Origin: Dokdonia sp. 4H-3-7-5
GTDB taxonomy: Bacteria; Bacteroidota; Bacteroidia; Flavobacteriales; Flavobacteriaceae
NCBI RefSeq assembly: GCF_000212355.1
Contig: NC_015496.1
Span: forward strand, 310,001-374,000
DNA length: 64,000 bases
Direction: 5' to 3'
The translations under genes were made by a program, and so were the position numbers. The number at the start of each line of letters is the position of its first letter. The stretch's first letter is position 1. Of this stretch, positions 1,997 to 61,724 are shown in pieces. The notes beneath the pieces are model-generated. The model had not been told where the DNA came from and made no database searches. It saw only the letters and a list, made by a program, of their open reading frames with translations.

Positions 1997-2833
1997 TTAT
2001 TCCTTTTTTAAGATTTTTGAGGTTCCTGTAAAACGTTCTATCATTAGTTTAGGTTCGCCATACACATGAAGCTCTGCTTTTTCATCAAGATCAACAATAA
2101 TCTCTTGGTCTGCAGTTACAATGGTCGTTGAGCTTCCTGTAGCGTTTATATTAATCACATCTGTATTAAATGTTTCCGCCTTGCACTCAGCATTATCATT
2201 TAGATCCAGCGATACTGTTTGAGCATTTCCTTTTAACTCTAGGTCTGATCGTCCAGATGCAGAGAGGGTGATTTTTTTTGTATTGATATCCGCTTTCGCG
2301 AAAGCGTTATCCGTAACATTCATAGTCAAGTCATCTCCCATATAATCCATCTCAATTTTTGAATTTGAATTTGCAGTTATGGTAGCTTGTTTTGCTTTTA
2401 TCTCTCCTTCAAACTGACTATCATCTAGAAAACTTCCTCTAAAAAAATCTGATTTGAGAACAGATTGTGCTTTCACCTTACTCTTTGCATCTAAGCTTAC
2501 AGAATTAAGCGTAACAAAACGCACCGTAATATTAAGACGTTTTGCACTTCTGATATCCTTCCTCGCAGAAACTAGCAATACACTATCACGCACATCAAAA
2601 CTTATCAATTCAATAAGGTTATCATCCATCTCAAGCTCATAACTTGGTTGAGAATCTGCAATAAGTGTTACTTCTAGACCATCTGTTACTTTTATATCTG
2701 TAAATGGACGTAATACCTCCGATACATCTTTCACATTTCTACTCCCTTTTACTCGCTCTCTTTGAGCACTTACTGCCGTAGTCACAAACATAAGCACAGC
2801 AATAGCTATACTTTTCATATATAGTTTTTTCAT
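1997..2833 (-). CDS. GIN-type (DUF2807) exported protein
   Basis: The start at 2833 gives 278 aa with a signal peptide (MKKLYMKSIAIAVLMFVTT, then AVSAQ). An upstream in-frame ATG at 2878 would add 15 residues without signal character. The body resembles head-GIN proteins: an N-terminal strand region (FTDIKVTDGLEVTLIA), then short repeated strands without the classical GSGD turns. The segment NAFAKAD near residue 183 is encoded by a copy of the dispersed palindrome at 2291-2306. It is an exported protein of unknown function, convergent with the paralogous pair at 78-1917. Confidence 0.75.
   Translation of the reverse strand: MKKLYMKSIAIAVLMFVTTAVSAQRERVKGSRNVKDVSEVLRPFTDIKVTDGLEVTLIADSQPSYELEMDDNLIELISFDVRDSVLLVSARKDIRSAKRLNITVRFVTLNSVSLDAKSKVKAQSVLKSDFFRGSFLDDSQFEGEIKAKQATITANSNSKIEMDYMGDDLTMNVTDNAFAKADINTKKITLSASGRSDLELKGNAQTVSLDLNDNAECKAETFNTDVININATGSSTTIVTADQEIIVDLDEKAELHVYGEPKLMIERFTGTSKILKKE
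2291..2306. repeat. Dispersed palindrome, copy 1 (in coding sequence)
   Basis: Perfect CGCTTTCGCGAAAGCG inside the GIN-type gene, read as AFAKA in the frame of the protein. Confidence 0.95.
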
Positions 2834-2879
2834 AGAATTAAATGTACAATAAATGAGCCATCCTTTTATAATTGGCATA

Positions 2880-2911
2880 AAAAAAGCATCTGGTTACAGA
2901 TGCTCTTTTAA
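2880..2911 (-). terminator. Intrinsic terminator after the cysteine-repeat lipoprotein gene
   Basis: Read on the minus strand, AGAGCATCTG / CAGATGCTTTTTT forms a hairpin with a TAAC loop and a T-run. It lies 20 bases past the stop of the gene at 2931-3989. Confidence 0.8.
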
Positions 2912-2930
2912 AATATGTCGTTTATGGATA

Positions 2931-3989
2931 TTAATAGACAATATTAATCACTCCGCCTGCTGTTAGTACTTCTTCGTTATCTGGATTTGTAAATGTTCCA
3001 GAAAAAGTTCCTACGATTGCAGTACCATCGTTTGCAGTAATATTATTTACAAATGGCGTCGTTGCTTCTATAGATGCTGTGTGCACAACTCCTCCTACTG
3101 TTAGAATCGTATTTTGCATTACATTATCTCCTGTTTGTTGTAATACGATATCAAAAGTAAACGTATCTCCTGTATCTATATCAGTTGCAATCACGCTCAG
3201 TAAAGATCCGCTTATGCTTACCGTTGCTGTATTAAAATTTGTAAATATTTCTCCTACGGTTACTTGTACTGGCCCATCTTGTTCTGGTGGAGAGCAATCT
3301 CCTAGATTTTGTACAATAGCAGTAAGACTTCCATCTGTATCTCCACAAGCGGCTATTTGCGCTTGTAAAGCCATTGAGTAGTCTGCACAAGCCGTAGTAT
3401 ATGCATCTTCATCAAGAGGATCTACAGCATTAAATATTTCTCTAGCTTCTGATGTAGCTACCTGTGCTGCAGCACAATCACCACCACAATTCAATGCGTC
3501 AATGGTAGCCTGTATATTTCCGCTTACATCACCACAAGCTGCTATTTGAGCTTCTAAAGCGGCGCTATAAGCAAGGCATAATTGTTCTTCGTTATCACTA
3601 GAAGCATTATTTAAAGCTCCCAAGGCTGCATTTGCAGCAATCTCCGCTTGAAAACAAGGATCTGGCGTAGAGCAGTCTCCTAGGCTTGTAAGAGCAGCTT
3701 GAAATGTTCCAGATGCATCACCACAAAGTTGTATTGTTGCTTCGAGAGCTATAGCGTAGGTAGTGCATGCTTGAGCATAACCTTCATTAGATGCCACTGA
3801 AAATGCAGCTTGAGCTGCAGTTAAAGTTTCAAACGCTATCTGACATTCTTCACTATCGGAATCAACTTCAATAGGGTCAGAACCGTCACCTGTTACGCTA
3901 AAGACGCCTTCGAGTGGTTCATCATCACAAGAGACAACCGTCACTGCAACCATCATTATAAATAAAAATAAAACGTGTAGTTTTTTCAT
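2931..3989 (-). CDS. Lipoprotein with three cysteine-rich 60-aa repeats
   Basis: This 352-aa protein starts with a lipoprotein signal (MKKLHVLFLFIMMVAVTVVSC, lipobox VVSC). Residues of about 48 to 240 form three tandem units of roughly 60 aa, each with the pattern C-x-A...A-x(10-15)-C-x2-Y-x2-AL-x-A-x-I-x2-CGD-x-(S/D)G...L-(G)-(D)C. The four cysteines per unit suggest disulphide-pinned helical hairpins outside the cytoplasm. The last 110 residues are a separate beta-rich domain (GTFSGTF, VLTAGGVINI) like the C-terminal lipocalin-type domains of other flavobacterial lipoproteins. I do not recognise a named family. A binding or structural role at the cell surface is a guess. Confidence 0.7.
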   Translation of the reverse strand: MKKLHVLFLFIMMVAVTVVSCDDEPLEGVFSVTGDGSDPIEVDSDSEECQIAFETLTAAQAAFSVASNEGYAQACTTYAIALEATIQLCGDASGTFQAALTSLGDCSTPDPCFQAEIAANAALGALNNASSDNEEQLCLAYSAALEAQIAACGDVSGNIQATIDALNCGGDCAAAQVATSEAREIFNAVDPLDEDAYTTACADYSMALQAQIAACGDTDGSLTAIVQNLGDCSPPEQDGPVQVTVGEIFTNFNTATVSISGSLLSVIATDIDTGDTFTFDIVLQQTGDNVMQNTILTVGGVVHTASIEATTPFVNNITANDGTAIVGTFSGTFTNPDNEEVLTAGGVINIVY

Positions 3990-4055
3990 TGTAGTAGGAA
4001 TTTCTAAATCTGAAACACAAACATAATCAATTTATTGCACTGTTTTGCTCTTAGA

Positions 4056-4490
4056 CTATGAGTCCTTGCGAGCCTTTAACAGGTTGTTCTGCTCTTGCAT
4101 AAGATGCTCAATATTTGCAAGCAGCTCAATATTTTTTGGGGTTTTTTCTTCTGTATTTTTTGGATCTTCTGCTTTGTCCTTAAATCTATTTATTCCTTTA
4201 ATGACAACAAAAATGGTAATTGCAATTACTAAGAAGTCTATTGAAACTTCAATAAGTTCCCCATAACCTATTGCGATTTCTTTCCCTTCACCTTCGGCAG
4301 CACGTAAAAGATACTTTCTATCTGCGAGATTAATACCATCTGTGAGTAGTGATAGTGGTGGCATTACGACTTTTTTTACAATAGTATTTACCACATTATT
4401 AAAAGCAGTACCTATAATAATACCTACTGCCATGTCGATCATGTTACCTTTGATCGCAAAATTTTTGAATTCTTGAATAAATCCAGCCAT
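4056..4490 (-). CDS. mscL: Large-conductance mechanosensitive channel MscL
   Basis: This 144-aa protein has the MscL plan. The N-terminal amphipathic helix and first membrane helix read MAGFIQEFKNFAIKGN, then MIDMAVGIIIGTAFNNVV. A periplasmic loop follows, then a second membrane helix (EVSIDFLVIAITIFVVIKGINRF) and a charged C-terminal cytoplasmic helix. MscL opens at near-lytic membrane tension and releases solutes on osmotic downshock, which suits a marine bacterium. Length is normal for the family. The gene stands alone between the repeat lipoprotein and the MFS transporter gene, all on the minus strand. Confidence 0.97.
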   Translation of the reverse strand: MAGFIQEFKNFAIKGNMIDMAVGIIIGTAFNNVVNTIVKKVVMPPLSLLTDGINLADRKYLLRAAEGEGKEIAIGYGELIEVSIDFLVIAITIFVVIKGINRFKDKAEDPKNTEEKTPKNIELLANIEHLMQEQNNLLKARKDS

Positions 4491-4583
4491 AACTGTCTCT
4501 TGTTTGCCGTAGCAACTTAATTATTGATTAATAAACTTTAGAAAAGCCCTCTCTTATTATAAGATTGGGAATTTGAATATTTA

Positions 4584-4599
4584 CGCTTTCGCGAAAGCG
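4584..4599. repeat. Dispersed palindrome, copy 2 (3' of UMF1 gene)
   Basis: Perfect 16-mer, extended on both sides by TTA and TAA to a 22-bp palindrome. It ends 4 bases from the stop codon of the MFS gene. Confidence 0.95.
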
Positions 4600-4603
4600 T
4601 AAC

Positions 4604-5920: not shown

Positions 5921-5931
5921 AGTACTAAAAT

Positions 5932-5961
5932 AGAAAAGCTGTGCGATTGCACAGCTTTTCT
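5932..5961 (-). terminator. Intrinsic terminator after the M48 protease gene
   Basis: GAAAAGCTGTGC / GCACAGCTTTTC is a long A/T-flanked hairpin with a short loop. It lies downstream of the minus-strand protease gene and just before the MFS gene start. Confidence 0.8.
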
Positions 5962-5984
5962 TACTATATATTTCGTGTAAAGTT

Positions 5985-6806: not shown

Positions 6807-6845
6807 AATGATGGTTTTAAATCAGAATATAAAAATACGCAAATG

Positions 6846-9248: not shown

Positions 9249-9557
9249 AGTAATTGTTATTTCCTTTCAAATAAACACTATATCGTGTAAAAATGAAGTT
9301 AATTCGTAATTAGTTATTAACGCTAACGTTTTCGTAAGCTCAGAAAAGGTATTCATATCACCTTTAGAGCGTTTGGAACGCACAATCATGGCTTTTTTGC
9401 TAGATGTTAATCCCGCTTTCCATTACAATTCCTCATCGCGACTTTGTCTGCTCTTGTGGGATTTTCATTGCAATCGGGGTTATAGAGTCCCGCAAGTGTG
9501 CATTTATATAAGCCTAATTATTCTATCAGTTTCCCGAATTGAAATGTAGTATGCCAA
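9249..9557. other. 309-bp non-coding gap between GH31 and glgB
   Basis: No gene is seen here. The GH31-proximal third is AT-rich and may hold its promoter. At 9411-9495 there is a GC-richer block with roughly mirrored ends (CCCGCTTTCCATTACAATT, then TTTTCATTGCAATCGGGGT). It does not look like a terminator and may be a decayed copy of a flavobacterial intergenic element. Confidence 0.5.
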
Positions 9558-12739: not shown

Positions 12740-12767
12740 TATTTATTGCTTTTAGAGTTTGGAATTT

Positions 12768-14195
12768 TTATTTTTTGATAGTTACTTTTTTTGGTATCAT
12801 TTCTTCATATAATGAGGCGTAAGTTCCAGCTGCATTTTCCCAGCTGTGGTCTATCTCCATCATTTGTTTTTGATTTGCACTAAAGGCTTTCTTATCCTTA
12901 TAAAAAAGAGAAGCACGTTCTATACTGTATACAACATCCCATACAGAAGTTTGATCATGACAAATACCATTACCGCCATCACCTATGTCTACTACTGTAT
13001 CTTTTAAACCTCCCGTACGGCGTACAATTGGCATACAACCGTATCTCAAACTATACAACTGATTTAAACCGCAAGGCTCCACCCTGCTAGGCATTAAAAG
13101 AAAATCTGCTCCAGCATATACTTGGTGTGACATTCTTTCTTCGTAGCCTATATGAGCATTATATCTTCCTTTATAGGTGGTTTTAAGTTCTTCTAGTTGG
13201 CGCTCCACTTCTGGCGAGCCGCTTCCTAATAAAATGATATTGACATCATGCTGTTTCAAAGCAGTATCGATAATCTCTGGTAGTAAATCTGCTCCTTTCT
13301 CCCAAACAAGTCTACCTATAAACCCAAAGAGTGGTTTTGAGGCGTCTAGTCCAAACTCATCACAAATAGCCTTTTTATTAGCCTCACGGCCTTTAGCTCT
13401 TGTCCTTATTGTATAATTTTTAATAAGATAATCGTCGGTGGCAGGATTCCATGTTTCGGCATCAATACCGTTTAGAATTCCAACGCACTTTAATTTCTCT
13501 TCTCTAAGCAGGCCTTCTAATCCATTTGCTTTTTCTTGTAATTCCACCATATATGATGGAGAAACGGTATTCACTCGCCATGCACATTTAATAGCAGCAG
13601 CAAGTGGGTTTATTTCTCCATACCAATCTAGTAGTCCTAGATCGCTTTCGCGAAAGCGTGGTAACATCCCTACCATATCATGAGAAAAATTACCTTGATA
13701 CTGTGCATTGTGAATAGAAAGCAACGTAGGCACTTTCATAAGGCTATCGAATTCTGGGCAATGCTGCATCATAAAGGGTATAAATCCAGTATGATGGTCA
13801 TGGCAATGTATAATATCTAATTTTCTCTTTAAACTGAGCACCCATTGCATCACTACTCGCTGAAAAGCGACAAAGCGTAAAGGATCATCATCATATCCAT
13901 ACACGTTTTTCCTATCTGTGAGCTCTGTAATTCTTACTACAAACAATGGAAAACCCAGCTCACTATCTACATCTATAACTTCGCTAAAATAAGTTTTACC
14001 CTCTATTACTAGGTTATAAAAAAACACGATAGAACCAGTTGCACGCTCCACCCAGCTAGTCTTATAATATGGCATAATAACTGCCGCTGTATGACCTATG
14101 CGATTTTGATATTTAGGAAGAGCACCTACCACATCTGCTAGCCCGCCCACTTTTGCGACAGGATAACACTCGGCACTTACATGAAGAATATTCAT
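12768..14195 (-). CDS. glgA: Glycogen synthase (GT5)
   Basis: This 475-aa protein begins MNILHVSAECYPVAKVGGLADVVGALP, the ADP-glucose-binding KVGGL motif of bacterial GT5 glycogen synthases. It ends with the second Rossmann domain (FIGRLVWEKGADLL, PSRVEPCGLNQLYSLRYG, TGGLKDTV). It extends alpha-1,4-glucan from ADP-glucose. It is the first gene of the glgA-glgC-glgB operon; a 298-bp AT-rich gap separates it from the divergent msrB gene and should hold its promoter. The segment RFRES near residue 185 is encoded by a copy of the dispersed palindrome. Confidence 0.97.
   Translation of the reverse strand: MNILHVSAECYPVAKVGGLADVVGALPKYQNRIGHTAAVIMPYYKTSWVERATGSIVFFYNLVIEGKTYFSEVIDVDSELGFPLFVVRITELTDRKNVYGYDDDPLRFVAFQRVVMQWVLSLKRKLDIIHCHDHHTGFIPFMMQHCPEFDSLMKVPTLLSIHNAQYQGNFSHDMVGMLPRFRESDLGLLDWYGEINPLAAAIKCAWRVNTVSPSYMVELQEKANGLEGLLREEKLKCVGILNGIDAETWNPATDDYLIKNYTIRTRAKGREANKKAICDEFGLDASKPLFGFIGRLVWEKGADLLPEIIDTALKQHDVNIILLGSGSPEVERQLEELKTTYKGRYNAHIGYEERMSHQVYAGADFLLMPSRVEPCGLNQLYSLRYGCMPIVRRTGGLKDTVVDIGDGGNGICHDQTSVWDVVYSIERASLFYKDKKAFSANQKQMMEIDHSWENAAGTYASLYEEMIPKKVTIKK
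13643..13658. repeat. Dispersed palindrome, copy 3 (in glgA)
   Basis: Perfect 16-mer inside glgA, read in the RFRES frame rather than the more common AFAKA frame. Confidence 0.95.
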
Positions 14196-14493
14196 AGTTT
14201 CAGGTAATTAGATAATATCTTAAATGTAACGGTTATTAAGATTACGACTCTTTATGAGCTATTAAATATAGGTTAAATCATAAATAACTAAGCATGATTT
14301 ATTCACATTTATAAGATAAAAAATCAAGTGATATCATAATTTTTTAATAATACCATAACAATACATGATGAACAGAAGTCTATTTTATCCCAATAAATGC
14401 AAACTTATAATTGCGTATGATATGTCATTTTCACAATGCTTTAACGACCAAGTCTACAGTAATGAATTAACTTTACTAAAAAAGGAAATAGTT

Positions 14494-14973: not shown

Positions 14974-14974
14974 T

Positions 14975-15364: not shown

Positions 15365-15370
15365 GAATCA

Positions 15371-15386
15371 CGCTTTCGCGAAAGCG
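15371..15386. repeat. Dispersed palindrome, copy 4 (3' of msrB)
   Basis: Perfect 16-mer, 6 bases past the msrB stop codon and directly before the terminator hairpin. Confidence 0.95.
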
Positions 15387-15399
15387 TAAAAACACCAAT

Positions 15400-18746: not shown

Positions 18747-18762
18747 CGCTTTCGCGAGTGCG
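18747..18762. repeat. Dispersed palindrome, degenerate copy
   Basis: CGCTTTCGCGAGTGCG matches the 16-mer at 14 of 16 positions. The two changes break the right arm. It lies 19 bases upstream of aroQ. Confidence 0.7.
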
Positions 18763-20465: not shown

Positions 20466-20481
20466 GGTTTTCTTTCAATTT

Positions 20482-20493
20482 TTCGCGAAAGCG
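20482..20493. repeat. Dispersed palindrome, half copy
   Basis: TTCGCGAAAGCG keeps the right half of the palindrome while the left arm is AATT. It lies between the convergent stops of xerD and the M24 peptidase gene. Confidence 0.65.
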
Positions 20494-23281: not shown

Positions 23282-23297
23282 CGCTTTCGCGAAAGCG
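23282..23297. repeat. Dispersed palindrome, copy 5 (3' of menE)
   Basis: Perfect 16-mer with a further A/T pair on each side, 11 bases past the menE stop codon. Confidence 0.95.
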
Positions 23298-25416: not shown

Positions 25417-26451
25417 TTATAATTTAAAATTCCAGTGCTTATTATTATCCGTTCTTAAAGTTCCATTCACTACTTCTAGTGGTGAAGATATATTATTTGT
25501 AAAAAGGCTCCCCGTACCTAGTCCTTGAGGCCCTTTTGCTCCTAATTCATGGGTCCATTGTGCGATAGCATTAAGACCAATATTACTTTCTAATGCAGAG
25601 GTAATCCACCATGCGATCCCTAATGAATCTGCTACGTCAATCCACTCTTGACTTCCTTTAAAACCTCCAATAAAGCTAGGCTTTAAAATAATATATTGTG
25701 GTTTTATAGTTTCAAGCAGCTTGCGTTTTGAAGGGAGATCTGTCACTCCTATAAGTTCTTCATCTAGCGCTATTGGTGTAGGTGTACTCGCACATAATGA
25801 TGCCATTGCCTCCCACTGTTTTGTAGCAATGGGTTGTTCTATAGAGTGAATATCTAGCTCGGCTAGTTGGAATAGGACTTCTTTTGCTTTCGCGAAAGCA
25901 AAACCACCATTTGCATCTACCCGCAAGGTAAGCTGCTCATTATTGTAACTCTTTCTTATAGAGGAAAGAATCGCCATTTCGTCTTTAAAGTCAATGGCTC
26001 CTATCTTCATTTTTATACAATCAAAACCTTGCTCAAGCTTTTCTGCTACCTGCGCTCTCATAAAATCTTCATCTCCCATCCATATCAAGCCATTGATTTC
26101 TATAGCAGAGGTTCCTTCCGTAAAGGTAGATGGAAATAAAACATAGGGATGATTAGATTTAAGTGATAAAAACGCCATCTCAATACCCGCTTGTATACTT
26201 GGATAGGCTATTAGTTGTTCCCAAAGAGCTTGAGGTCCTTTAGTTATATTACTACATGCCCATTCCAGCTTCTGCTCATAATCTGGCACATCATCATAAC
26301 TAAGGCCTCTAAGGATTCCACATTCTCCTACACCCATCTTCCCATTATCATCAATGATAATATACCACGTCTCTTTTGTACGTAAGACACCTCGTGAAGT
26401 ACCGCTGGGGCTCTTGAACTCTAATATGTGCTTTTTATAATGTGCTTTCAA
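25417..26451 (-). CDS. menC: o-Succinylbenzoate synthase
   Basis: This 344-aa enolase-superfamily enzyme has a catalytic lysine pair in CIKMKIG. The metal ligands lie in LRVDANGGF, SIEQPI and IALDEELIG, and the second lysine is in YIILKPSFIGG. It dehydrates SHCHC to o-succinylbenzoate in menaquinone synthesis. It heads the run menC-CPBP protease-menE. The AFAKAK segment after DANGG is encoded by a palindrome copy and sits beside the metal-binding aspartate, showing that the repeat is tolerated in conserved surroundings. Confidence 0.92.
   Translation of the reverse strand: MKAHYKKHILEFKSPSGTSRGVLRTKETWYIIIDDNGKMGVGECGILRGLSYDDVPDYEQKLEWACSNITKGPQALWEQLIAYPSIQAGIEMAFLSLKSNHPYVLFPSTFTEGTSAIEINGLIWMGDEDFMRAQVAEKLEQGFDCIKMKIGAIDFKDEMAILSSIRKSYNNEQLTLRVDANGGFAFAKAKEVLFQLAELDIHSIEQPIATKQWEAMASLCASTPTPIALDEELIGVTDLPSKRKLLETIKPQYIILKPSFIGGFKGSQEWIDVADSLGIAWWITSALESNIGLNAIAQWTHELGAKGPQGLGTGSLFTNNISSPLEVVNGTLRTDNNKHWNFKL
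25886..25899. repeat. Dispersed palindrome, copy 6 (in menC)
   Basis: The 14-bp core GCTTTCGCGAAAGC is flanked by TTTT and AAAA instead of C and G, so the palindrome extends with A/T pairs. It reads AFAKA in menC. Confidence 0.93.
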
Positions 26452-27296: not shown

Positions 27297-28138
27297 CCTA
27301 ATCTTACTTTTACATTAAGTTTTTTTAACAAAGCTGAAGCAGCATCAATTTTAAACTCCTTTTTTCTATACTTTGTTATAGGCTGTATTCCCATAATGGT
27401 GTTTGTAATAAAAAGCTCATCTGCTTTTTGCAATTCAAATGGTGATATAGATGCCTCTTCAAAAGTGTACTCATCCATTAGTCCTATAATATTAATAAGT
27501 TGTTTCCTTATCACACCGCGTAAGCAACCATCAGTAAGTGGTGGTGTCTTAATATAGTTTCCTTTTACTAGAAATAAATTCCCTTGCAATGCTTCGGCTA
27601 TATTTTTCTCATTATTTACTAGTAGACAATTATCATATCCATTCTCTTGAGCATAGATACTTCCTGTAACGTGCACAATCTTATTAGTCGTTTTAAGGGT
27701 AGATATTAAATCTGCATTTATATAATGGTCTTTATACAACTCCACCTCGTAAGGTTCTTCGCTTAGGAGATAAAAAGGATTAGGGTGCGCTTTCGCGAAA
27801 GCGTAATAACCCACACCGCGCTCTTCTGGAAGATACGTGCCGCCACCAGATCTATACACTGTAATACGTATGCGAGCTGTTTGATCAATTAGACCAGAAG
27901 CTGTCAAAGTCTTCAAGAGTTCTTCTTCAAGAAACTCTGGCGTGAACTCCATTGGGATTTCCATGCGAAGAATGCGCATAGAAGCCATAAGTCTAAAGTA
28001 GTGGTCTTCCCAGAAAAGGAGTTTACCGTTTACTGCTTTAATTGTTTCAAAAAGTCCATCGCCATAAAGTAGCCCTCTATTAAATGGATTAAGTTGCGCA
28101 TCCTCTGGTGAGGATAAAGTTCCGTTGTGATTGATCAT
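27293..28138 (-). CDS. Class IV aminotransferase (PabC/IlvE/DAAT fold)
   Basis: This 281-aa PLP-dependent protein starts with NPFNRGLLYGDGLFETIKAVNGKLLFWEDHYFRL, the standard opening of fold-type IV enzymes. The PLP-binding lysine is in LKTTNKIVHV, and later segments (NIAEALQGNLFLVKG, TPPLTDGCLRGVIR) are also typical. It could be aminodeoxychorismate lyase or a branched-chain or D-amino acid aminotransferase. The sequence alone does not decide this, and neighbours give no hint. Its AFAKA segment near residue 120 is palindrome-encoded. Confidence 0.85.
   Translation of the reverse strand: MINHNGTLSSPEDAQLNPFNRGLLYGDGLFETIKAVNGKLLFWEDHYFRLMASMRILRMEIPMEFTPEFLEEELLKTLTASGLIDQTARIRITVYRSGGGTYLPEERGVGYYAFAKAHPNPFYLLSEEPYEVELYKDHYINADLISTLKTTNKIVHVTGSIYAQENGYDNCLLVNNEKNIAEALQGNLFLVKGNYIKTPPLTDGCLRGVIRKQLINIIGLMDEYTFEEASISPFELQKADELFITNTIMGIQPITKYRKKEFKIDAASALLKKLNVKVRLG
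27788..27803. repeat. Dispersed palindrome, copy 7 (in aminotransferase gene)
   Basis: Perfect 16-mer, read as AFAKA in the class IV aminotransferase. Confidence 0.95.
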
Positions 28139-29855: not shown

Positions 29856-29871
29856 CGCTTTCGCGAAAGCA
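29856..29871. repeat. Dispersed palindrome, copy 8 (3' of PAP2 gene)
   Basis: CGCTTTCGCGAAAGCA, with a perfect 14-bp core and a changed last base. It lies 12 bases past the PAP2 stop codon. Confidence 0.93.
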
Positions 29872-29906: not shown

Positions 29907-30785
29907 ATGAACTATAGAAAATATATACCTCACCTATTTATTGTCACTCTCGCAATCATTGTCACTGTAAGTTGTGCAAATAGCTACAATGGTCAGAGCG
30001 ATGAAAAAGACAAAATAACAATTAAAAAAAAATCTAAAAAAGATTATACGATTGTAAACACTTGGAAAATGCCCAAAATTTTAAATGAGGTAAGTGGCAT
30101 CTCATGGATTTCTGACAACAGACTAGCTTGCGTAGAAGATGAGGATGGCACCATTTTCATTTATGATCTTAAAAAAGAAAAAGTCATTCAAGAAGTAGCC
30201 TTTGCTGGTCATGGAGATTATGAAGGTATCACAGTTAATGGTAAGGATGCCTACGTGATGCGCAGTGATGGACTAATTTATGAGGTATTACGCTTTCGCG
30301 AAAGCAATCCAACTGTTACTAACTTTCAAACAGCATTTAGCGGTCGCAACAATATAGAAACCCTCACTCTAGACACAAAAAAAAATAGTTTAGTTATAAC
30401 CCCAAAAGATCGTGATAGTAATGAGGATTTTAAAGGTCTATATTATATCCCTTTAAACTCTAAAATAATGCCTGTAAAACCAGTCATTCGTATAAATATG
30501 AATGACAAAGCTTTTGAGGATTTTAAAAAGAAAAAAGCGTATCGCACTTTTAGTCCTTCTGATGTGGCAATACATCCAGTGACGGGTGACTACTATGTGC
30601 TTGAAGGTAAAAAACCAAAGCTGGCAATACTAGATAGCGACGGTACCGTTAAAAAAGTATACCAACTCGATAAAGACGACTTTGCTCAGCCAGAGGGAAT
30701 TACTTTTAGTCCTGACGGAAGGCTTTTTATTTCTAATGAAGCTAGAAAGGACGAAGCTACGATTGTAGAAGTTGTCTTTAATTAA
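29907..30785 (+). CDS. SdiA-regulated-type beta-propeller lipoprotein
   Basis: This 292-aa protein has a lipoprotein signal (VTVSCANS). Its propeller-like repeats include EVSGISWISDNRLACVEDEDGTIFIYDL, HGDYEGITVNGKDAYVMRSDGLIYEV, IETLTLDTKKNSLVITPKD, FSPSDVAIHPVTGDYYVLEG and FAQPEGITFSPDGRLFISNEA. These match the SdiA-regulated domain family, which is related to strictosidine-synthase-like and phytase-like propellers. The function is unknown. The RFRES segment near residue 129 is encoded by a palindrome copy. It is probably co-transcribed with the PAP2 gene. Confidence 0.85.
   Translation: MNYRKYIPHLFIVTLAIIVTVSCANSYNGQSDEKDKITIKKKSKKDYTIVNTWKMPKILNEVSGISWISDNRLACVEDEDGTIFIYDLKKEKVIQEVAFAGHGDYEGITVNGKDAYVMRSDGLIYEVLRFRESNPTVTNFQTAFSGRNNIETLTLDTKKNSLVITPKDRDSNEDFKGLYYIPLNSKIMPVKPVIRINMNDKAFEDFKKKKAYRTFSPSDVAIHPVTGDYYVLEGKKPKLAILDSDGTVKKVYQLDKDDFAQPEGITFSPDGRLFISNEARKDEATIVEVVFN
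30291..30306. repeat. Dispersed palindrome, copy 9 (in SdiA-regulated-type gene)
   Basis: CGCTTTCGCGAAAGCA with a perfect 14-bp core, read in the RFRES frame. It lies only about 0.4 kb from copy 8. Confidence 0.93.
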
Positions 30786-35356: not shown

Positions 35357-35372
35357 CGCTTTCGCGAAAGCT
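35357..35372. repeat. Dispersed palindrome, copy 10 (intergenic, katG/eda)
   Basis: CGCTTTCGCGAAAGCT with a perfect 14-bp core, 92 bases past the katG stop and beyond its terminator. Confidence 0.93.
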
Positions 35373-35638: not shown

Positions 35639-36310
35639 TTATTTACCTCTTATAACTTTTATTAAATCAATAGCCAGAGCTGTCTTTTCTTCTATTTTTT
35701 TATAATCCCATGCTCCATTCTCATCTAGAGCAATGAGTTTTGAACCTAGTCCTACGCAGGTTACTCCTGCATTAAACCATTCTTCTAGACTTTCTCTGGT
35801 AGGAGAAACACCGCCTGTAGGCATCACTGACGTCCAGGGACATGGTCCTTTTATTGCTTTTACAAACTGGGCTCCATAAATACCTCCTGGAAATAATTTT
35901 ACAATCTCACAGCCTAGTTCTTCGGCACGGGCAATTTCTGTAAGTGATCCGCAACCTGGTGACCATAGCACTTTTCTTCTATTACACACCAAGGCGATAT
36001 CTTCACGCAATACAGGAGTTACCACAAAGTTTGCTCCTAACTGCAAATAAAGAGATGCTGCTGCTGCGTTCGTAACACTACCTACGCCAAGTATTAACTC
36101 AGGTAATTCCGCTTTCGCGAAAGCGCACAACTCATCAAATACCTTATGTGCATTATCACCACGGCTTGTAAACTCTATTACTCGAGCACCACCGCTGTAA
36201 CAAGCTTGTAATAATTGCTTGCCTACCTCAACAGATTCATTATAAAACAAAGGAACAATTCCCGTGTCTTTCATCGCTTGTGCTACTTCTAATCTTGTAA
36301 ATCTTGCCAT
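35639..36310 (-). CDS. eda: KDPG aldolase (2-dehydro-3-deoxyphosphogluconate aldolase)
   Basis: This 223-aa barrel aldolase has the conserved glutamate in VIEFTSRGD, FVVTPVLRE, SPGCGSLTE and the Schiff-base lysine region IVKLFPGGIYG, with MPTGGVSP late. It splits KDPG into pyruvate and glyceraldehyde 3-phosphate, the last step of alginate catabolism here. It is the last gene of the MFS-SDR-kdgK-eda run, 2 bases after kdgK. Its AFAKA segment is encoded by a palindrome copy. Confidence 0.95.
   Translation of the reverse strand: MARFTRLEVAQAMKDTGIVPLFYNESVEVGKQLLQACYSGGARVIEFTSRGDNAHKVFDELCAFAKAELPELILGVGSVTNAAAASLYLQLGANFVVTPVLREDIALVCNRRKVLWSPGCGSLTEIARAEELGCEIVKLFPGGIYGAQFVKAIKGPCPWTSVMPTGGVSPTRESLEEWFNAGVTCVGLGSKLIALDENGAWDYKKIEEKTALAIDLIKVIRGK
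36110..36125. repeat. Dispersed palindrome, copy 11 (in eda)
   Basis: Perfect 16-mer, read as AFAKA in KDPG aldolase. Confidence 0.95.
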
Positions 36311-39548: not shown

Positions 39549-39564
39549 CGCTTTCGCGAAAGCG
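39549..39564. repeat. Dispersed palindrome, copy 12 (3' of gntR)
   Basis: Perfect 16-mer, extended by TA on both sides, 11 bases past the regulator stop codon. Confidence 0.95.
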
Positions 39565-47305: not shown

Positions 47306-49603
47306 TTAGTTTTTAATTTGTTTTAAAGTGTAATTACCTTTCCAGGTGTATGTTTGATTTGATAGGGTTATTGAATGTTGCGCTTTCGCGAAAGCGTTAT
47401 CTACCACCACCACAAGTTGCTCCTCCCCAGATAGCATAGTGATTTTTATAGCCACATATCCTTCTGGTGCTTTTTCTTGAGTTATAGATGCCACAGATGC
47501 ATATGCATCCTGCGCTTTTTCTGTAACCGCATTATAGGTACCATGGGATTCTATCACCTGAGCGTACACTGCGTTTTTAACATCTGTCTTTCGATGTATA
47601 AACATAGGATCTCTGCGTAGGTTAAACGATGAATCATTTGCTCCCACACGACCTAAAATAAATGTATCCTTACTATCTGAAAGTGTAGTAACACTGTAGA
47701 ATCTGTTATTATTAAGCCAAGTAAATTGACTACTTCCAGCCTTTGCATTACCCATGGCCTCTTTCCATATGTGTTGATATCCGTTTGCCGTTCCTAATGC
47801 GCGTAATGATGCTTCCTGCTGTAAATCAAAACTAGTTGAGATGACCTGCCCATGATAATAGATTGGTAAGTCTATCTGATGCGCTTGATTGCTGTTTATT
47901 TGATTAATATCTATTATATATGGCTTGTTACCACCTTCTGGTGTTACCATCATCATAGTGCGTGTAATCTCCGTTCCAGGGTAAGCGTTGTTTTCTGTGG
48001 CGCTTACTACTTGTAGTTTTTCATCATTAGTTTCAAAAGTGATAATCTCTGGGTGGTGTTTTGAACTTTCCTTAAAACTACCTTTAAAGTGTGATGTCTC
48101 ATCAATCACCACTGTATTATGAGCAATAGTTTGCTTTGCCCAAGTCGTATTTTCTTTTAGGTAACCACCTCCATTCTTTTGCTCGACATTTACAAAACGT
48201 GCGAGTCCATAATCTTGCAATACCTCTGCTCCATCTTCATAAAGAGAATAAGAGAGCTTATCAAAATGCCCATGACTCAAACCATGACTAGCATTTTTCA
48301 TCACTAGTGCCATCGTTCCTTGACTATAATTTGCTCTTAAAATAGCAACACCACCTTGATTACCTTCTGGGCCGTCATGTAGTAAAACAGATTCTTTTGT
48401 GAATGGGATTGCTTTACCTGCCTCAATTGCCTGAGCTACTGCAAGACCGGTAATATCAAGTTCTACTTGTCCTTGCTGCTGCGCTACCGATAGTAAACGT
48501 GCGTCTTGATTCCCATAATAATAAGCAATATCCACTGCAGAAACCAATGATGACGTGTTATAAGACATTCCTTTTTGACCATCATTTAGTGGGAAAAAAT
48601 CACCATTTTGATCGGTGAGGTTAAGAAGTGCATCTACTGCTTTTATTAAAACTCCGCCATTGTATTCAAATATTTTGAGTTCCGGTTTTTTAGTTTCTAA
48701 CGCTTTCGCGAAAGCTAAAAAAGGATACATCGCATATCGCTGATAGTACGGTCCTTCTGTATAATAACCATCTGGCGAAAAAGGTTCATCTAGATTTGCT
48801 AGAAACCCTGTTTTTTGACCCTCAGCCTTTATGAGTCCGCCATCATTATCCGTCGCGGTCGCCGAAATACTATCGTTTTTAATGCCGTACAATGCGCGGT
48901 CTACAAGCTCATCATCATCCATTACTAAACCTATCATACCTACAGCGACAGTACCCCAAGTACTATGATTATGAATGCGGTTAAAAAATTGTGGTGTTTC
49001 TACAGACAGAAAATCTGCAAATGGACGAAATAACTTTGTATCGAGAATCTCACGATCTTCTTCTGGTATCCAACTACGTATGGCGTCATACGCCTGGCTC
49101 ATATGCACTAACCAGTTTGCATCATTGAGACATTGCCAGAATATCTTCCCACGAGAATATGATCGTTCTTGCGGGTGACGTGGTAATGAAGGATACATCT
49201 CTGCATATTTCATTAATACATCTCTCGTATACTGTGCATATTTCTCTTCTCCCGTGAGCTGAAAAATCACCCCTGCCTTATGAAGTATGGTATAATTTAA
49301 TTTATGCTGTGTGTGGGTATAACCTCCAGCCATGTCCTTTGGGATAGGCACTTGTATCCCTTTTTCCATTGCTGCATCTACTTCTTGTTTTGCTACAGCT
49401 AGCGAACTATCAAACAACGGAACACTTCCCAACTTAGCTCTTATATCTTCAACCTCAGTTGTGGTAAGTACTACATTTGGATTTGCGCCACTTGTAGTAG
49501 CGCCCGATGTGTCTTTACTAGTTCCCTGCTCATCACAAGAAACGAATAAAGTCGAAAGTGTGATACCAACTACAAGAGCCGTATTTCTGCTAATTAATTT
49601 CAT
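47306..49603 (-). CDS. PL17 oligoalginate lyase, lipoprotein
   Basis: This 765-aa protein has a lipoprotein signal (LSTLFVSC). The N-terminal alginate-lyase alpha-barrel contains NRIHNHSTWGTVAVGMIG and YTEGPYYQRYAMYPF with the catalytic tyrosine and histidine. A C-terminal heparinase II/III beta-sandwich follows (HGLSHGHFDKLSYSLYEDGAEVLQDYG). It releases unsaturated monouronates from oligoalginate, feeding the KdgF-like cupin next door. Two in-frame AFAKA segments are encoded by palindrome copies at 48701 and 47381, the only gene here with two. Confidence 0.94.
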   Translation of the reverse strand: MKLISRNTALVVGITLSTLFVSCDEQGTSKDTSGATTSGANPNVVLTTTEVEDIRAKLGSVPLFDSSLAVAKQEVDAAMEKGIQVPIPKDMAGGYTHTQHKLNYTILHKAGVIFQLTGEEKYAQYTRDVLMKYAEMYPSLPRHPQERSYSRGKIFWQCLNDANWLVHMSQAYDAIRSWIPEEDREILDTKLFRPFADFLSVETPQFFNRIHNHSTWGTVAVGMIGLVMDDDELVDRALYGIKNDSISATATDNDGGLIKAEGQKTGFLANLDEPFSPDGYYTEGPYYQRYAMYPFLAFAKALETKKPELKIFEYNGGVLIKAVDALLNLTDQNGDFFPLNDGQKGMSYNTSSLVSAVDIAYYYGNQDARLLSVAQQQGQVELDITGLAVAQAIEAGKAIPFTKESVLLHDGPEGNQGGVAILRANYSQGTMALVMKNASHGLSHGHFDKLSYSLYEDGAEVLQDYGLARFVNVEQKNGGGYLKENTTWAKQTIAHNTVVIDETSHFKGSFKESSKHHPEIITFETNDEKLQVVSATENNAYPGTEITRTMMMVTPEGGNKPYIIDINQINSNQAHQIDLPIYYHGQVISTSFDLQQEASLRALGTANGYQHIWKEAMGNAKAGSSQFTWLNNNRFYSVTTLSDSKDTFILGRVGANDSSFNLRRDPMFIHRKTDVKNAVYAQVIESHGTYNAVTEKAQDAYASVASITQEKAPEGYVAIKITMLSGEEQLVVVVDNAFAKAQHSITLSNQTYTWKGNYTLKQIKN
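47381..47396. repeat. Dispersed palindrome, copy 13 (in PL17 gene, 3' part)
   Basis: Perfect 16-mer read as AFAKA near the C-terminus of PL17. Confidence 0.95.
48701..48716. repeat. Dispersed palindrome, copy 14 (in PL17 gene, middle)
   Basis: CGCTTTCGCGAAAGCT with a perfect 14-bp core, read as AFAKA just after the YTEGPYYQRY active-site region. Confidence 0.93.
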
Positions 49604-49609
49604 AAAGTC

Positions 49610-51844: not shown

Positions 51845-54144
51845 TAGTAAACCAGTTTAAGTTTCAGATTTTGAACTACTTTTATTTCACCAGAGTTAGA
51901 TACTGTATTATTTACTGGTTCTTGACCTTTTTCTCCCCAAAGAACCGCGACATACTTCACACGATTATTTGTAAATGTGTTATTTGCTAGGGTAACATTT
52001 ACAATACCTCTTGTTTGTAATAAAATGTTAGCGCTATCACTAGCACCACATTTTGTAAATGTGTTACCAGTAACCACCAGGCTTCCACCTATGGTAGACT
52101 CATCATAACCTCCACGGTAATAATCTAGCACATCACTGGCTACATTTTCAAACTGAGAATCTTCTACAAAGACAAAAGCTGCATTATAATCACCTTTATC
52201 ATTTACTTCTTTATTAAGCTGTATCCCTCGCTGTGTGTTTTTAATCACACTATTTTTAATCATGATGGTATCTGCAAAAGATGCTTTACTCGTTTCTAGC
52301 ACACTTTTGAATCCATCTATTTCTACATTATCAAGCCACAGTTCATAAGACTGCCCCATGTTTTTGTCAAGGGTTGCAAAAGCATCTGTAGTTGACGTTC
52401 CTTTAAGTGAAATGTTTTTGAGCTTGAGTTTTGCTCTTGGTTGTAGCTCAAAACCTTTGGCAGTATTACTAAAAGTAAGTACCGGTTTTTCTGAAGATGA
52501 GGATTGAAGAGTTACCGCTTTCGCGAAAGCGTACTTTTCATTAATCTCATAATTACCAGCACTAAGCTCGATAGTATCTCCATCATTACTTGTCGCAACA
52601 GCCTCTGTAAGCTCTGCTGCAGTTGACACTTTTATCGTTTTTCCTGCTTGCTTTTCTGGATGTGGGTTGAACCATGACGTCCCGTAATTAGTTACGTCGA
52701 GCAATGCCATTGCTCCCGTACTCGCTCCTGCAATTGCCCCCACCCTATTAGTGGACGCTCTTTTATTGCCAAAAATGTCAGTCTCAATCTTATCAAAGTC
52801 AAATCCATTATACATCTCAGTCTCTAGTGATTCTGGCGACTGGAAGATTTCTGTAGGCGATGATAATGTCACTTCTTTAGTTAACAAACCATCCGTTTGA
52901 TAAGCACTTTTATTTTCTACGTTAAGTATGTTATTTTTAAAAGTAACCCCAGTGATGCTATCGTAATTTTTGATAATTTCTGTAGTTTCAATATCTCCGT
53001 AGACTAAGTTATTTGCCACAATCATACGTTCTGCACGTGCAGAGCGTATTTCTGAAGCTGGAAGCACTTCTGCCTGATTTAGGTTTGCTCCTACTCCAAA
53101 ATGCCAAGGCGTCTTTGTATTTATAAATGAATTGTGAGCGACTACCACATCTGTAACCTGATTATAACGATTGAGCGGGGACTTAGGAATACCATTCATT
53201 ACTGCGAGCGGTGCGCGAAATTCATTTCCTTTTAAGTTATAGAAGTAGTTATTTACAATAAGATGACCCGTATTTATAACACGTATACCTCCTATAAACT
53301 CAGATGCATCATTGCCTATAAATACATTACCATCTATGGTCGCATAATTACCGTGACGAAGCACTAGCGAACCTTCTGACTCAAAAAAGACATTATTTTT
53401 AAACGTATTATAATTAGACTTACTTGAGATAATCTCTACTTCTCCATTACACTTCTCAAAATAATTGTGTTCTACATTTACATAGCCCGGTGTCATAGAC
53501 GTATAACTATCGCCTAACTGCATAGTCTCAGCACGAGGCCCACCTTTTCTAGGACGTGGTCCAAAATGGTTGTCCTTAATCTGATGATACGTATTTACAT
53601 TTTCATTTCCTTTTAAAAACACGCGAAGTGTAGGGCCTTGGTTTGTTTTACCAGTAATATAATTATGATCAAATGTATTGTGCTGTCCCCATAATTCGAT
53701 CCAGTGGTTTTTACTATCGCGATCTGGATTTGTAAAATCTTCTATTACACAATCTGTTACTTGCGAGTGATATGCAATCTTCTCATCATCTATTTTAAAA
53801 CGTATAATGGCATTCTCTGTGGTATAACCATTTTTAAAATAAAGTCCTTCTACTACAAGGTGCTTCCCTCCTAGTTTAAGTGAAGAGTTTCCTTCTAAGA
53901 TTACTTTTCCAGCATTTTCTGCCTTAAGAGTAATAGGATTTGCTTCAGTGCCTTCTCCGTAAAATTTAATAGCTAGATCTTTCCACACCCCATCTTTAAG
54001 ACTTATTACATCTCCTGGCTCTGCATCTTCAATTGCCTCTTTTAATTCATCTGGGGTAGTGACTGTCTGTGATATTATAGGCATAGGTTCTTTGCATGAT
54101 GCAAAGATGATAAGGCTACAAAAAAGAAGAAGATATCGAGTCAT
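51844..54144 (-). CDS. PL6 alginate lyase, two-domain, lipoprotein
   Basis: Starting at 54144 gives 766 aa with a lipoprotein signal (LIIFASC). The frame is open to 54186, but that stretch is palindrome-derived and lacks signal character. The first domain is a right-handed beta-helix of the chondroitinase-B/PL6 type (HWIELWGQHNTFDHNYITGKTNQGPTLRVF), carrying the basic residues expected at the calcium-assisted active site. A second beta-helix starts near residue 510, as in two-domain PL6 enzymes such as AlyGC. It is first in its unit; its stop shares one base with the next start. Residues AFAKA are palindrome-encoded. Confidence 0.92.
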   Translation of the reverse strand: MTRYLLLFCSLIIFASCKEPMPIISQTVTTPDELKEAIEDAEPGDVISLKDGVWKDLAIKFYGEGTEANPITLKAENAGKVILEGNSSLKLGGKHLVVEGLYFKNGYTTENAIIRFKIDDEKIAYHSQVTDCVIEDFTNPDRDSKNHWIELWGQHNTFDHNYITGKTNQGPTLRVFLKGNENVNTYHQIKDNHFGPRPRKGGPRAETMQLGDSYTSMTPGYVNVEHNYFEKCNGEVEIISSKSNYNTFKNNVFFESEGSLVLRHGNYATIDGNVFIGNDASEFIGGIRVINTGHLIVNNYFYNLKGNEFRAPLAVMNGIPKSPLNRYNQVTDVVVAHNSFINTKTPWHFGVGANLNQAEVLPASEIRSARAERMIVANNLVYGDIETTEIIKNYDSITGVTFKNNILNVENKSAYQTDGLLTKEVTLSSPTEIFQSPESLETEMYNGFDFDKIETDIFGNKRASTNRVGAIAGASTGAMALLDVTNYGTSWFNPHPEKQAGKTIKVSTAAELTEAVATSNDGDTIELSAGNYEINEKYAFAKAVTLQSSSSEKPVLTFSNTAKGFELQPRAKLKLKNISLKGTSTTDAFATLDKNMGQSYELWLDNVEIDGFKSVLETSKASFADTIMIKNSVIKNTQRGIQLNKEVNDKGDYNAAFVFVEDSQFENVASDVLDYYRGGYDESTIGGSLVVTGNTFTKCGASDSANILLQTRGIVNVTLANNTFTNNRVKYVAVLWGEKGQEPVNNTVSNSGEIKVVQNLKLKLVY
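52516..52531. repeat. Dispersed palindrome, copy 15 (in PL6 gene)
   Basis: Perfect 16-mer read as AFAKA in the second beta-helix of PL6. Confidence 0.95.
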
Positions 54145-54169
54145 AAATATGTTGTGAGTACTAAGAGTA

Positions 54170-54185
54170 CGCTTTCGCGAAAGCA
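54170..54185. repeat. Dispersed palindrome, copy 16 (5' of PL6 gene)
   Basis: CGCTTTCGCGAAAGCA with a perfect 14-bp core, 25 bases upstream of the PL6 start, inside the probable leader. Confidence 0.93.
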
Positions 54186-54282
54186 AAAAAACAATACACT
54201 TATATTAGAATTATCTAAAATTACTCATCTGCAACATCACTGTTTGAGCGTGAAATAATTTTAAATTTGAATTTAATGTAAA

Positions 54283-58357: not shown

Positions 58358-58373
58358 CGCTTTCGCGAAAGCG
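58358..58373. repeat. Dispersed palindrome, copy 17 (regulatory gap)
   Basis: Perfect 16-mer with A/T extension, lying between the sigma-54 promoter and the enhancer-like dyad. Confidence 0.95.
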
Positions 58374-60937: not shown

Positions 60938-60970
60938 TGGATTTCATTTATTTACAAGTAGCTACTATCT

Positions 60971-61486
60971 CTATGAACGCAATAGCTTTTTACCTGTAGT
61001 GACAAAAGAAATTCCTTGCTGGCCGTAGGTACTTATCATAATCGCTTCAATGATAGGCTCATTTGTATTAGGCTCTATTTTCCAGTCGAAGATAAAGTTT
61101 GCACCCGTTCCTCCTTCTTTATCCACACCATCTATAACAATCTGAACGGTCTCCATAGGCTTGATAAAAATGGTCTTATCAAAATACACACGTATTGGCT
61201 CGCCATAAGTGTTATAATACACTGCCTTGTCAACATACACCTGCGCTTCTCGATTAGGATTATGCAAACTTATAGTCGCCGTTAAGTCTGCTTGATCATT
61301 TTCTGTACGTAAATATATTTGAGAATAAATAGAAAGAAAAGTACTCCCAGACTCGAGTGAATCACTAAGCGCGCTCTTGACTGCCCTCTTGTCCCAGTTC
61401 ACTGGATCTACAGAACTTAGTGGCTTAGGTTCCTCACAAGAAAGAACTAATAGATATACTAATGCAATGGGAAGTAAATATTTCAT
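60971..61486 (-). CDS. DUF3124 lipoprotein
   Basis: The start at 61486 (MKYLLPIALVYLLVLSC) gives 171 aa with a clean lipobox; the frame extends to 61519. The mature part contains SIYSQIYLRTENDQADLTATISLHNPN, VYVDKAVYYNTYGEPIRVYFDKTIFIKPMETVQIVI and TGANFIFDWKIEPNTNEPIIEAIMISTYGQQGISFV, as in DUF3124 proteins. The function is unknown. It is probably co-transcribed with the histidine kinase and regulator, and could act as a periplasmic input, though the kinase looks cytoplasmic. Confidence 0.8.
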   Translation of the reverse strand: MKYLLPIALVYLLVLSCEEPKPLSSVDPVNWDKRAVKSALSDSLESGSTFLSIYSQIYLRTENDQADLTATISLHNPNREAQVYVDKAVYYNTYGEPIRVYFDKTIFIKPMETVQIVIDGVDKEGGTGANFIFDWKIEPNTNEPIIEAIMISTYGQQGISFVTTGKKLLRS

Positions 61487-61710
61487 AATAAGGTTGAGAT
61501 AGATGTAAGGTATACGCACTATAATAGATAGGTACTACAAGATATCAAATTTCTGAATTTAAATTGGTATGAAGTGTTTGTATCTCTTGTTTTAGAGGGA
61601 ATCTTTCTAAAAAATATAGTTGACATTTTTACTAATAGAGATTAACTTGAAGTAGCTCTTTACATTAAGAATACCTTAGAAATTTACATATAAGTAAATT
61701 TTTAAATCAA

Positions 61711-61724
61711 GCTTTCGCGAAAGC
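61711..61724. repeat. Dispersed palindrome, copy 18 (3' of haloperoxidase-type gene)
   Basis: The perfect 14-bp core GCTTTCGCGAAAGC is flanked by A and GTAA. It lies 7 bases past the stop codon at 61732. Confidence 0.93.

Follow-up and report, generated by a model that had tools for sequence, protein, structure and literature searches.

What maintains a long, perfect palindrome that recurs every few kilobases along a bacterial chromosome? The question is raised by a 64-kb stretch of Dokdonia sp. 4H-3-7-5 (positions 310,001–374,000 of NC_015496.1, hereafter the window), in which an initial annotation had listed 18 copies of the 14-mer GCTTTCGCGAAAGC. An exact search recovers the same 18 copies against 0 expected, and the 14-mer is absent from all of 100 dinucleotide shuffles of the window, in keeping with the annotation's view that chance would supply far fewer than one. 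The listed start positions were mostly one base low because a 16-mer had been counted, the sites themselves being genuine; likewise, the two degenerate copies placed at 18747 and 20482 are real but lie at 18748 and 20479, and they are the only further window sites when up to two mismatches are allowed.

Genome and taxonomic range

The whole genome (3,389,993 bp) contains 757 copies of the palindrome, as against 0 of the reversed control. The figure of about one per 3.5 kb given earlier is close to that of the window (3.6 kb), whereas the genome-wide density is lower, at one per 4.5 kb. Ten 20-kb samples from around the chromosome, on which the origin and terminus were not located, hold 3–8 sites apiece. 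The count thus greatly exceeds what chance would give, and the copies do not stem from a single amplified element; neither of the two objections that the initial annotation had itself raised applies. All 18 Dokdonia genomes carry the palindrome, at 369–905 copies each, while among 397 searched genomes of the family more than 19 copies occur in 6, belonging to three genera, and beyond the family the highest count seen is one. The site-rich lineages are Dokdonia and two related genera, which carry copies by the hundred. Our literature searches found no published description of this palindrome.

Architecture of the site

The palindrome had been described as often extending to TTA...TAA; what stands of this is a weaker TTAC...GTAA extension, the 14-mer alone being invariant. 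Eleven of the 18 window copies have the form CGCTTTCGCGAAAGCG, and one further copy, ending in T/A, is palindromic over 16 bp. Other sites form a second class, GCTTTCGCGAAA, which is asymmetric in having GC on one side only; it accounts for 31 of 131 TTTCGCGAAA occurrences in a sample of 464 kb. To this class belongs the supposedly degenerate copy at 20479..20492 (GCTTTCGCGAAAAA on the minus strand, between convergent genes), whose core is the same in the genomes G008 and G007; the other, at 18748..18761 (GCTTTCGCGAGTGC), is a degenerate copy whose place is occupied by an intact site in both. Asymmetric sites occur in both orientations, with no orientation bias relative to genes, and they lose most of the hairpin into which the symmetric 22-mer folds. 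The asymmetric class, the arms described next, the spacing and the positional conservation were all absent from the initial annotation.

On each strand, the core is preceded by a 5' arm of about 17 nt, spanning -19 to -3, in which C is scarce at most positions whether the DNA is coding or noncoding. The avoidance is relaxed at -8 and -14 (Fisher P 4.6e-5, for positions picked after looking), and C has a lower share among the differences within arms, partly as a consequence of there being little C in them. For the site-rich group g213, C-poverty of the arms is not clear, and a search for complementarity between the arms found none.

Arms of this polarity on both strands invite comparison with a two-way Chi-like signal, i.e., a site that an end-processing nuclease-helicase would read on whichever strand it meets it and at which RecA loading would start. 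RecA prefers a G/T-rich, C-poor strand and would thus be favored by such a 5' arm; the density of sites is also of the same order as that of Chi in E. coli (87 in 300 kb), and the phage contigs considered below carry sites too. However, in 300 kb of E. coli K-12, Chi itself shows neither C-poor arms nor even spacing (spacing CV 1.14, within a null of 0.86–1.35), the asymmetric sites here stand in both orientations and a core of 12–14 bases is long for Chi. AddB-like (PF12705) proteins are found in 15 of 15 genomes tested, and g11 and Dokdonia do not group together in a tree of them, which argues against the reading without firmly excluding it. On balance, we regard a Chi-like role as improbable.

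Conservation and turnover

Sister species have the sites at corresponding positions. Where the aligned DNA averages 93.5% and 89.9% identity, the intact sites number 49 of 52, 49 of 53, 45 of 47 and 45 of 49 of those aligned; much of the asymmetric class is likewise conserved. Within coding copies, third codon positions in the core are identical throughout (118/118 and 114/114), as against 804/964 (83%) and 705/928 (76%) in the flanks, and noncoding cores are identical at 361 of 364 and 320 of 322 positions. The sites are thus under purifying selection at the level of DNA. Relatives whose DNA is about 70% identical keep sites at single positions. When sites of g11 and g213 were compared with Dokdonia genes 3 of 48 could be aligned, all from g213, of which 2 are kept, a number too small to build on.

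Sites are lost by base substitution in place: altered aligned sites differ by one or two substitutions, and none of the 19 altered rows among G000, G008 and G007 has a gap in its core. Of the 14 rows from wider relatives in which the site is lost, 12 are likewise ungapped, while 15372 and 23283 are gapped and ambiguous in one relative each. A mobile repeat of the REP/BIME type, which would show empty sites in relatives, is accordingly not supported, and the earlier denial that the palindrome is a REP/BIME or an IS end holds.

DNA specific to one of three genomes has 12 sites in 85.7 kb, and is poorer in them than shared DNA, of which 582.8 kb contain 192 (Poisson P 0.0005; shared DNA is counted once per genome, and some specific blocks lie at the ends of the stretches compared). 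This suggests that newly acquired DNA goes without sites for some time, and that the sites cannot be strictly essential.

Spacing and genomic context

Sites exclude one another. Adjacent sites less than 1 kb apart are rarer than under uniform placement in 9 of 9 samples (P ≤ 0.016 for seven of them), and the low variation in spacing persists under three gene-aware nulls; the tests on G000, G008 and G007 are not independent of each other since their aligned regions are orthologous. Asymmetric sites lie unusually far from symmetric ones in 5 of 9 samples, as if filling gaps, and the signs of this conflict in g213 (12 sites).

This pattern bears upon a HIP1-type origin, wherein an orphan DNA methyltransferase would make or keep the palindrome. 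A palindromic, highly iterated sequence with palindromic extensions recalls HIP1 as portrayed in PMC4390886, and over-representation of a perfect palindrome is seen here as it is there. Yet a mutational bias predicts neither even spacing nor gap-filling, and the marking methylase proposed by the initial annotation does not emerge from the three families searched: among 12 site-rich genomes, PF00145 is missing from 7 and PF02086 from 6, and PF01555 reaches the cut-off in only 2. TCGCGA is not avoided outside the motif (28 seen against 31 expected), which also speaks against restriction avoidance of this hexamer. A methyltransferase-driven origin hence appears very unlikely.

With genes called by a home-made hexamer caller, 46 of 100 sites fall inside genes, in all three frames. 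The window copies divide evenly, 9 in called genes and 9 between them, bearing out the earlier remark that both locations are used. The genic copies, all but one in minus-strand genes, lie at 2292..2305 (ORF 1997-2878), 13644..13657 (glycogen-synthase-like, 12768-14195), 25886..25899 (enolase-like, 25417-26451; kept at 10 of 15 aligned loci), 27789..27802 (aminotransferase IV, 27293-28138; 11 of 17), 30292..30305 (29907-30785, plus strand; 2 of 2), 36111..36124 (KDPG-aldolase-like, 35639-36310; 7 of 7), 47382..47395 and 48702..48715 (both alginate-lyase-like, 47306-49603) and 52517..52530 (chondroitinase-B-like, 51844-54186). The copy at 54171..54184 is upstream of the called start of this last gene, its longest ORF (TTG start) covering the site. 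Several intergenic copies lie downstream of stops: 4585..4598 (just beyond 4604-5920, minus), 23283..23296 (23309-24403, minus; kept at 5 of 6 aligned loci), 29857..29870 (29115-29843, plus), 39550..39563 (39576-40280, minus) and 61711..61724 (61732-63138, minus). Another, at 35358..35371, lies between convergent genes (kept at 0 of 1 aligned locus), and the remaining two are at 15372..15385 and 58359..58372. Divergent gaps are poor in sites, with 3 in 10.4 kb as against 40 in 39.0 kb of tandem gaps (P 0.02), and convergent gaps have 8 in 4.6 kb.

Intergenic copies are closer to stops (median 45 bp) than to starts (125 bp), the symmetric 22-mer forms a hairpin and, of the four exact sites within window positions 1-20000, that at 15372 was itself listed as terminator-like on the minus strand by a pattern scan. 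Such signs would suit an RNA element, be it a 3' UTR hairpin, a processing site or a terminator. Against this stand the many sites within genes in every frame and a separate, longer hairpin with a T-run at 15398-15429, beside the site at 15372. Further, the asymmetric class, despite much of it being conserved, lies far from symmetric sites, lacks the full hairpin and shows no orientation bias, which makes an RNA target unlikely. The sites are not hairpins with T-runs confined to gene 3' ends, and the earlier opinion that they are no terminators is sustained; we give an RNA element very little credence.

Virus contigs, islands and the uptake reading

Among 25 searched virus records, 7, of 24–40 kb, have at least four symmetric sites, spread out along the contig. 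As these contigs were found by their having the site, they indicate that phages can carry it, and do not give the share of phages that do. In another viral scan, many of the matches listed are likely chance hits, and a search of named plasmid and phage collections with the 22-mer, in which matches shorter than 17 bases are not reported, returned only 17-base chance matches, in two records each. Site-bearing islands in other genera encode an RND-type efflux function, multicopper oxidase and P-type ATPase, and these efflux islands offer no hint of a trans-acting factor.

The chief rival reading is a DNA-uptake or self-recognition sequence, comparable to USS of Haemophilus and DUS of Neisseria: competent cells would import site-bearing DNA, and biased recombination would spread and keep the sites. 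The sites here change by point mutation rather than insertion and have weaker flanks, as reported for the gain and loss of USS and its flanking segments in PMC7811141. Another member of Flavobacteriaceae, Riemerella columbina, prefers its own DNA, according to PMC7965970. The paucity of sites in genome-specific DNA also speaks for this reading, and the spacing is compatible with one site per fragment. However, spread-out sites on phage contigs are not predicted, and the scarcity in divergent gaps counts against it as well. To our knowledge, moreover, no uptake sequence is palindromic, unlike GCTTTCGCGAAAGC. We consider uptake a real but lesser possibility.

A candidate spaced recognition site

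Uptake sequences have many signs in common with the reading that we place first. The even spacing, the few sites in divergent gaps and the phage contigs nevertheless favor a nucleoid-organizing site over a DNA-uptake sequence. Accordingly, we lean, at close to even confidence, toward GCTTTCGCGAAAGC being a selectively maintained recognition site in double-stranded DNA for a putative sequence-specific protein, most likely one that organizes or handles the chromosome. This protein, probably binding as a dimer, would require a site every few kilobases of resident DNA. The computational analysis found no binding protein or trans-acting factor. Such a factor may have moved between lineages or been lost in one. 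A simple dimer offers no explanation for the avoidance of C at most positions between -19 and -3 on each strand, for which a process acting on single strands is the more natural source. The poverty of genome-specific DNA in sites, and in g213 the unclear arms and conflicting signs of gap-filling, also weigh against this reading.

Of what the initial annotation proposed, a dispersed, highly iterated palindrome that is probably a protein recognition site survives, while the marking methylase, for the three families searched, and a segregation site read by ParB are not supported. For ParB, this is because the recognition region in Dokdonia and g213 matches that of site-poor genomes; in g11 the recognition helix region has two changes of its own, this being an indirect test.

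A fuller version, which we advance more tentatively, is that of a new chromosome-wide site for DNA bookkeeping: a composite of about 50 bp, with a 14-bp palindrome and polar C-poor arms, spaced by selection every 3–5 kb, wherein a putative factor crosses between lineages, hundreds of sites evolve afterwards and resident phages adapt. In any case, the sites point to a previously undescribed DNA-level site with a putative partner protein. They offer a clean and testable example in which selection acts on short stretches of DNA by the hundred, and so strongly that synonymous positions are frozen within genes unrelated to one another. Sharp predictions follow from the rule of spacing, from the asymmetric class and from the arms. 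The factor, if found, would reveal a new chromosome-organizing system, an uptake code of Bacteroidota or a recombination signal, all of which bear on how bacteria recognize or arrange their own DNA.

Comparison with known systems

Chi of E. coli (GCTGGTGG) is similarly dispersed, at a density of similar order, but is short and asymmetric, and in the same tests lacks arms and even spacing. The parS and Noc-binding sites are, like GCTTTCGCGAAAGC, palindromes of 14–16 bp with TTTC...GAAA; they number tens per genome, whereas GCTTTCGCGAAAGC has hundreds, and the ParB recognition region is unremarkable. With USS/DUS of Pasteurellaceae and Neisseriaceae the sites share restriction to a family, high enrichment, turnover by point mutation and weaker flanks, and differ in having a palindromic core, arms on both sides, even spacing, a presence on phage contigs and scarcity in divergent gaps. 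There is also a likeness in form to HIP1 of cyanobacteria (GCGATCGC), a perfect palindrome that is strongly over-represented in its clade and has palindromic extensions (PMC4390886). HIP1 differs in clade and in having 8 bases as against 14 invariant ones, and here none of three methyltransferase families is common to the site-rich genomes; the even spacing, asymmetric class and C-poor arms of GCTTTCGCGAAAGC may also set it apart. HIP1 poses a similar question, and with the GCTTTCGCGAAAGC system another clade becomes available for addressing it.

Abundance and range of the palindrome

The 14-bp palindrome GCTTTCGCGAAAGC occurs in the window as 18 exact copies, placed where the initial annotation had put them, and the two degenerate copies it listed correspond to two further matches with at most two mismatches; its chance expectation of far below one agrees with zero copies in 100 shuffles of the window. 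Across the genome (one contig of 3,389,993 bp) there are 757 such 14-mers and none of the pattern read backwards. The enrichment is equally evident against a Markov background: a 464-kb sample holds 100 exact copies and 11, 35 and 28 with one, two and three mismatches, as against 0 exact and 0, 1 and 11 in a single fourth-order Markov simulation of 464 kb. The 14-mer recurs in two Dokdonia records whose AlgH-like protein is 74% identical to that of the window, these being the nearest named relatives found for that protein, which makes the present genome very probably a Dokdonia, and at 369–905 copies in each of the 18 genomes of the genus, the present one included. Among 397 genomes of the family, more than 400 copies are seen in six (two Dokdonia, three of the genus g11 and one of the genus g213) and 0–19 in the other 391; among 395 genomes of the phylum, the present genome alone is rich, with 0–6 copies in the remainder and at most one outside the family. 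Single copies are at chance level, since the reversed control also reaches one in some genomes. No description of CGCTTTCGCGAAAGCG, TTTCGCGAAA or a highly iterated Bacteroidetes palindrome, nor of a Dokdonia palindrome or over-represented motif, was found among the matches listed from open-licence PubMed Central.

The window also contains a match to the Flavo-1 RNA family at 9405–9485 on the minus strand (45.5 bits, just over the gathering score of 42) and, at 43620–54186, TonB-dependent receptor, alginate-lyase/heparinase-like and chondroitinase-B-like genes that probably form a polysaccharide-use cluster.

Conservation and the target of selection

The TTTCGCGAAA cores of the 464-kb sample (n = 131) comprise a symmetric class with GC on both sides (100) and an asymmetric class with GC on one side only (31), the non-GC side of which is A followed by A or T in 20 of 31; 28 of 159 TCGCGA occurrences lie outside such cores. 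In the same sample GATC and CGCG are both under-represented, at 0.71 and 0.72 of expectation. The commonest form is the identical 14-mer in the sister genomes G008 and G007, in G016, G004 and G010, and in g11 and g213.

Positional conservation in sister species, which had been proposed as a check, is pronounced over a 264-kb stretch with mean aligned identities of 93.5% (G008) and 89.9% (G007). Of the present genome's 59 sites, 49/52 aligned ones are intact in G008 (7 unaligned) and 45/47 in G007 (12 unaligned). Conversely, 49/53 aligned G008 sites (10/63 unaligned) and 45/49 aligned G007 sites (16/65 unaligned) are intact in the present genome, while the sisters share 52/55 aligned sites in either direction (8/63 unaligned from G008, 10/65 from G007). 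Where a copy has changed, it has done so by one or two substitutions and is not an empty site. In wider members, aligned loci retain sites 36111 (7/7), 30292 (2/2), 23283 (5/6), 25886 (10/15) and 27789 (11/17), with 0/1 each for 35358 and 15372; asymmetric sites (16 tabulated) are frequently, not invariably, conserved. At coding sites all aligned core bases are identical (378/378 and 364/364), and so are the third codon positions of the cores (118/118 and 114/114) as against 804/964 and 705/928 in the flanks, an outcome with probabilities of 5e-10 and 2.5e-14 at flank rates. Since synonymous positions are thus frozen, and since hairpin formation is slight in the asymmetric class (-2.6 versus -7.3 kcal/mol), which shows no orientation bias, the target of selection is the DNA, neither protein nor, in all likelihood, RNA.

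Placement and spacing

As initially described, copies lie both within and between genes: 46 of 100 are in called genes, which make up 86% of the DNA, with all frames used (27, 12 and 7), and 54 are intergenic (40 in tandem gaps, 8 convergent, 3 divergent and 3 with a neighbour missing at a contig end). Density falls from 1.75 sites per kb in convergent gaps through 1.03 in tandem and 0.29 in divergent gaps to 0.11 in coding DNA. Spacing of the first 100 sites is even (CV 0.72; 5,000 random draws averaged 0.99, none that low), also under three nulls preserving the gene map (P 0.002, 0.017 and 0.008), and pairs less than 1 kb apart are below uniform expectation in 9/9 samples (P <=0.016 in 7). 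Asymmetric sites are unusually distant from symmetric ones in 5/9 samples (P 0.0012–0.043), three of which are orthologous regions, and in g213 the under-1-kb fraction points the opposite way; the other four gave no significant effect.

Selection demands one site per few kilobases, and sites are rare in divergent gaps, where promoters lie. A putative protein bound at the sites would perturb promoters and would have a job distributed along the DNA. The promoter-gap scarcity and the one-per-few-kilobases density fit such a protein, and we therefore tentatively favour a role in chromosome organisation.

Sites on mobile and phage DNA

In low-count genomes of other genera, copies cluster in islands common to several genera, and two 14-mers exactly 933 bp apart recur at matching island places in five genera. 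The island stretches (L163–L174, from G126, G135, G149, G262, G384 and G029, plus G208) carry RND efflux, outer-membrane efflux, multicopper oxidase and P-type ATPase families by Pfam, with L172 differing in kind. Within Dokdonia, counting both classes, 12 sites lie in 85.7 kb of genome-specific DNA versus 192 in the 582.8 kb that is shared. One 32-kb block present in a single genome of the three (G007:C1, ~247580–279589) has 4 sites versus ~10 expected at the shared-DNA rate.

Among 25 IMG/VR records, which were found by carrying the site and so show that phages can carry it, not how many do, seven hold at least four symmetric sites and the other 18 hold 1–3. The richest is G444 (37 kb; 7 symmetric, 1 asymmetric), with terminase, portal, head protease and tail sheath. 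G451 (36 kb; 5 symmetric) has a transposase, G445 (27 kb; 5 symmetric) matches only a family of unknown function, G446 (31 kb; 4 symmetric, 1 asymmetric) has an integrase, G448 (30 kb; 4 symmetric) portal and head proteins, and G449 (40 kb; 4 symmetric, 1 asymmetric) a head protease; the phage-gene scan covered these six, and the seventh is G450 (24 kb; 4 symmetric). By DNA identity of the available pieces, G446, G448 and G450 form one group, with G444 and G451 as distant relatives and G445 and G449 largely separate. Sites on phage are not predicted if the palindrome is a DNA uptake signal, a reading that shares most of the signs of chromosome organisation and that we consider less likely.

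Candidate factors and evolutionary origin

ParB is present in 29/30 genomes. As a reader of the site it is not supported by a comparison of 28 rows (10 site-rich, 18 site-poor), in which Dokdonia and g213 have a ParB helix-turn-helix region like that of site-poor genomes and the g11 region shows two changes peculiar to that genus. ParB domain scores tend to be lower in site-rich genomes (108.9–115.4 versus 113.0–119.1 bits). A second ParB-type protein (frame of ~540–630 aa) accompanies the chromosomal ParB in G149, G369, G121, G262, G443, G038, G192 and G010. The suggested search for a methylase marking the site gave little encouragement, with PF00145 in 5, PF01555 above cut-off in 2 and PF02086 above cut-off in 6 of 12 site-rich genomes.

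An rpoB tree of 30 genomes groups Dokdonia with g213 and the site-poor G192 in one clade (support 100/99), within which Dokdonia pairs with g213 against G192 (89/75); g11 is placed elsewhere, and the backbone of the tree is weakly supported. At least two changes of the site-rich trait are required on this tree, and the trait might therefore have had two origins, perhaps via transfer of a factor, or perhaps a single origin followed by loss. An AddB-like tree does not join g11 with Dokdonia; its firm branches demand one change only, and thus a single origin remains compatible with it.

Polar arms and comparison with Chi

The 5' flank of each strand is C-poor from -19 to -3 (~6% versus 17–19%) and enriched in G and T, the arm stopping near -20. 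Such arms are found in both coding and noncoding DNA and also in g11; those of g213 (12 sites) show G excess without clear C loss. Arm bases vary freely, with C involved in 23–24% of between-genome differences versus 38–42% farther out, and no pairing between the two arms of a site was found. C is about twice as frequent at -8 and -14, positions picked after looking, as at other arm positions, hinting at a 6-nt rhythm. Polar arms are consistent with a Chi-like role, which nevertheless appears quite improbable: in the same test, 87 Chi sites of E. coli display neither arms nor even spacing.
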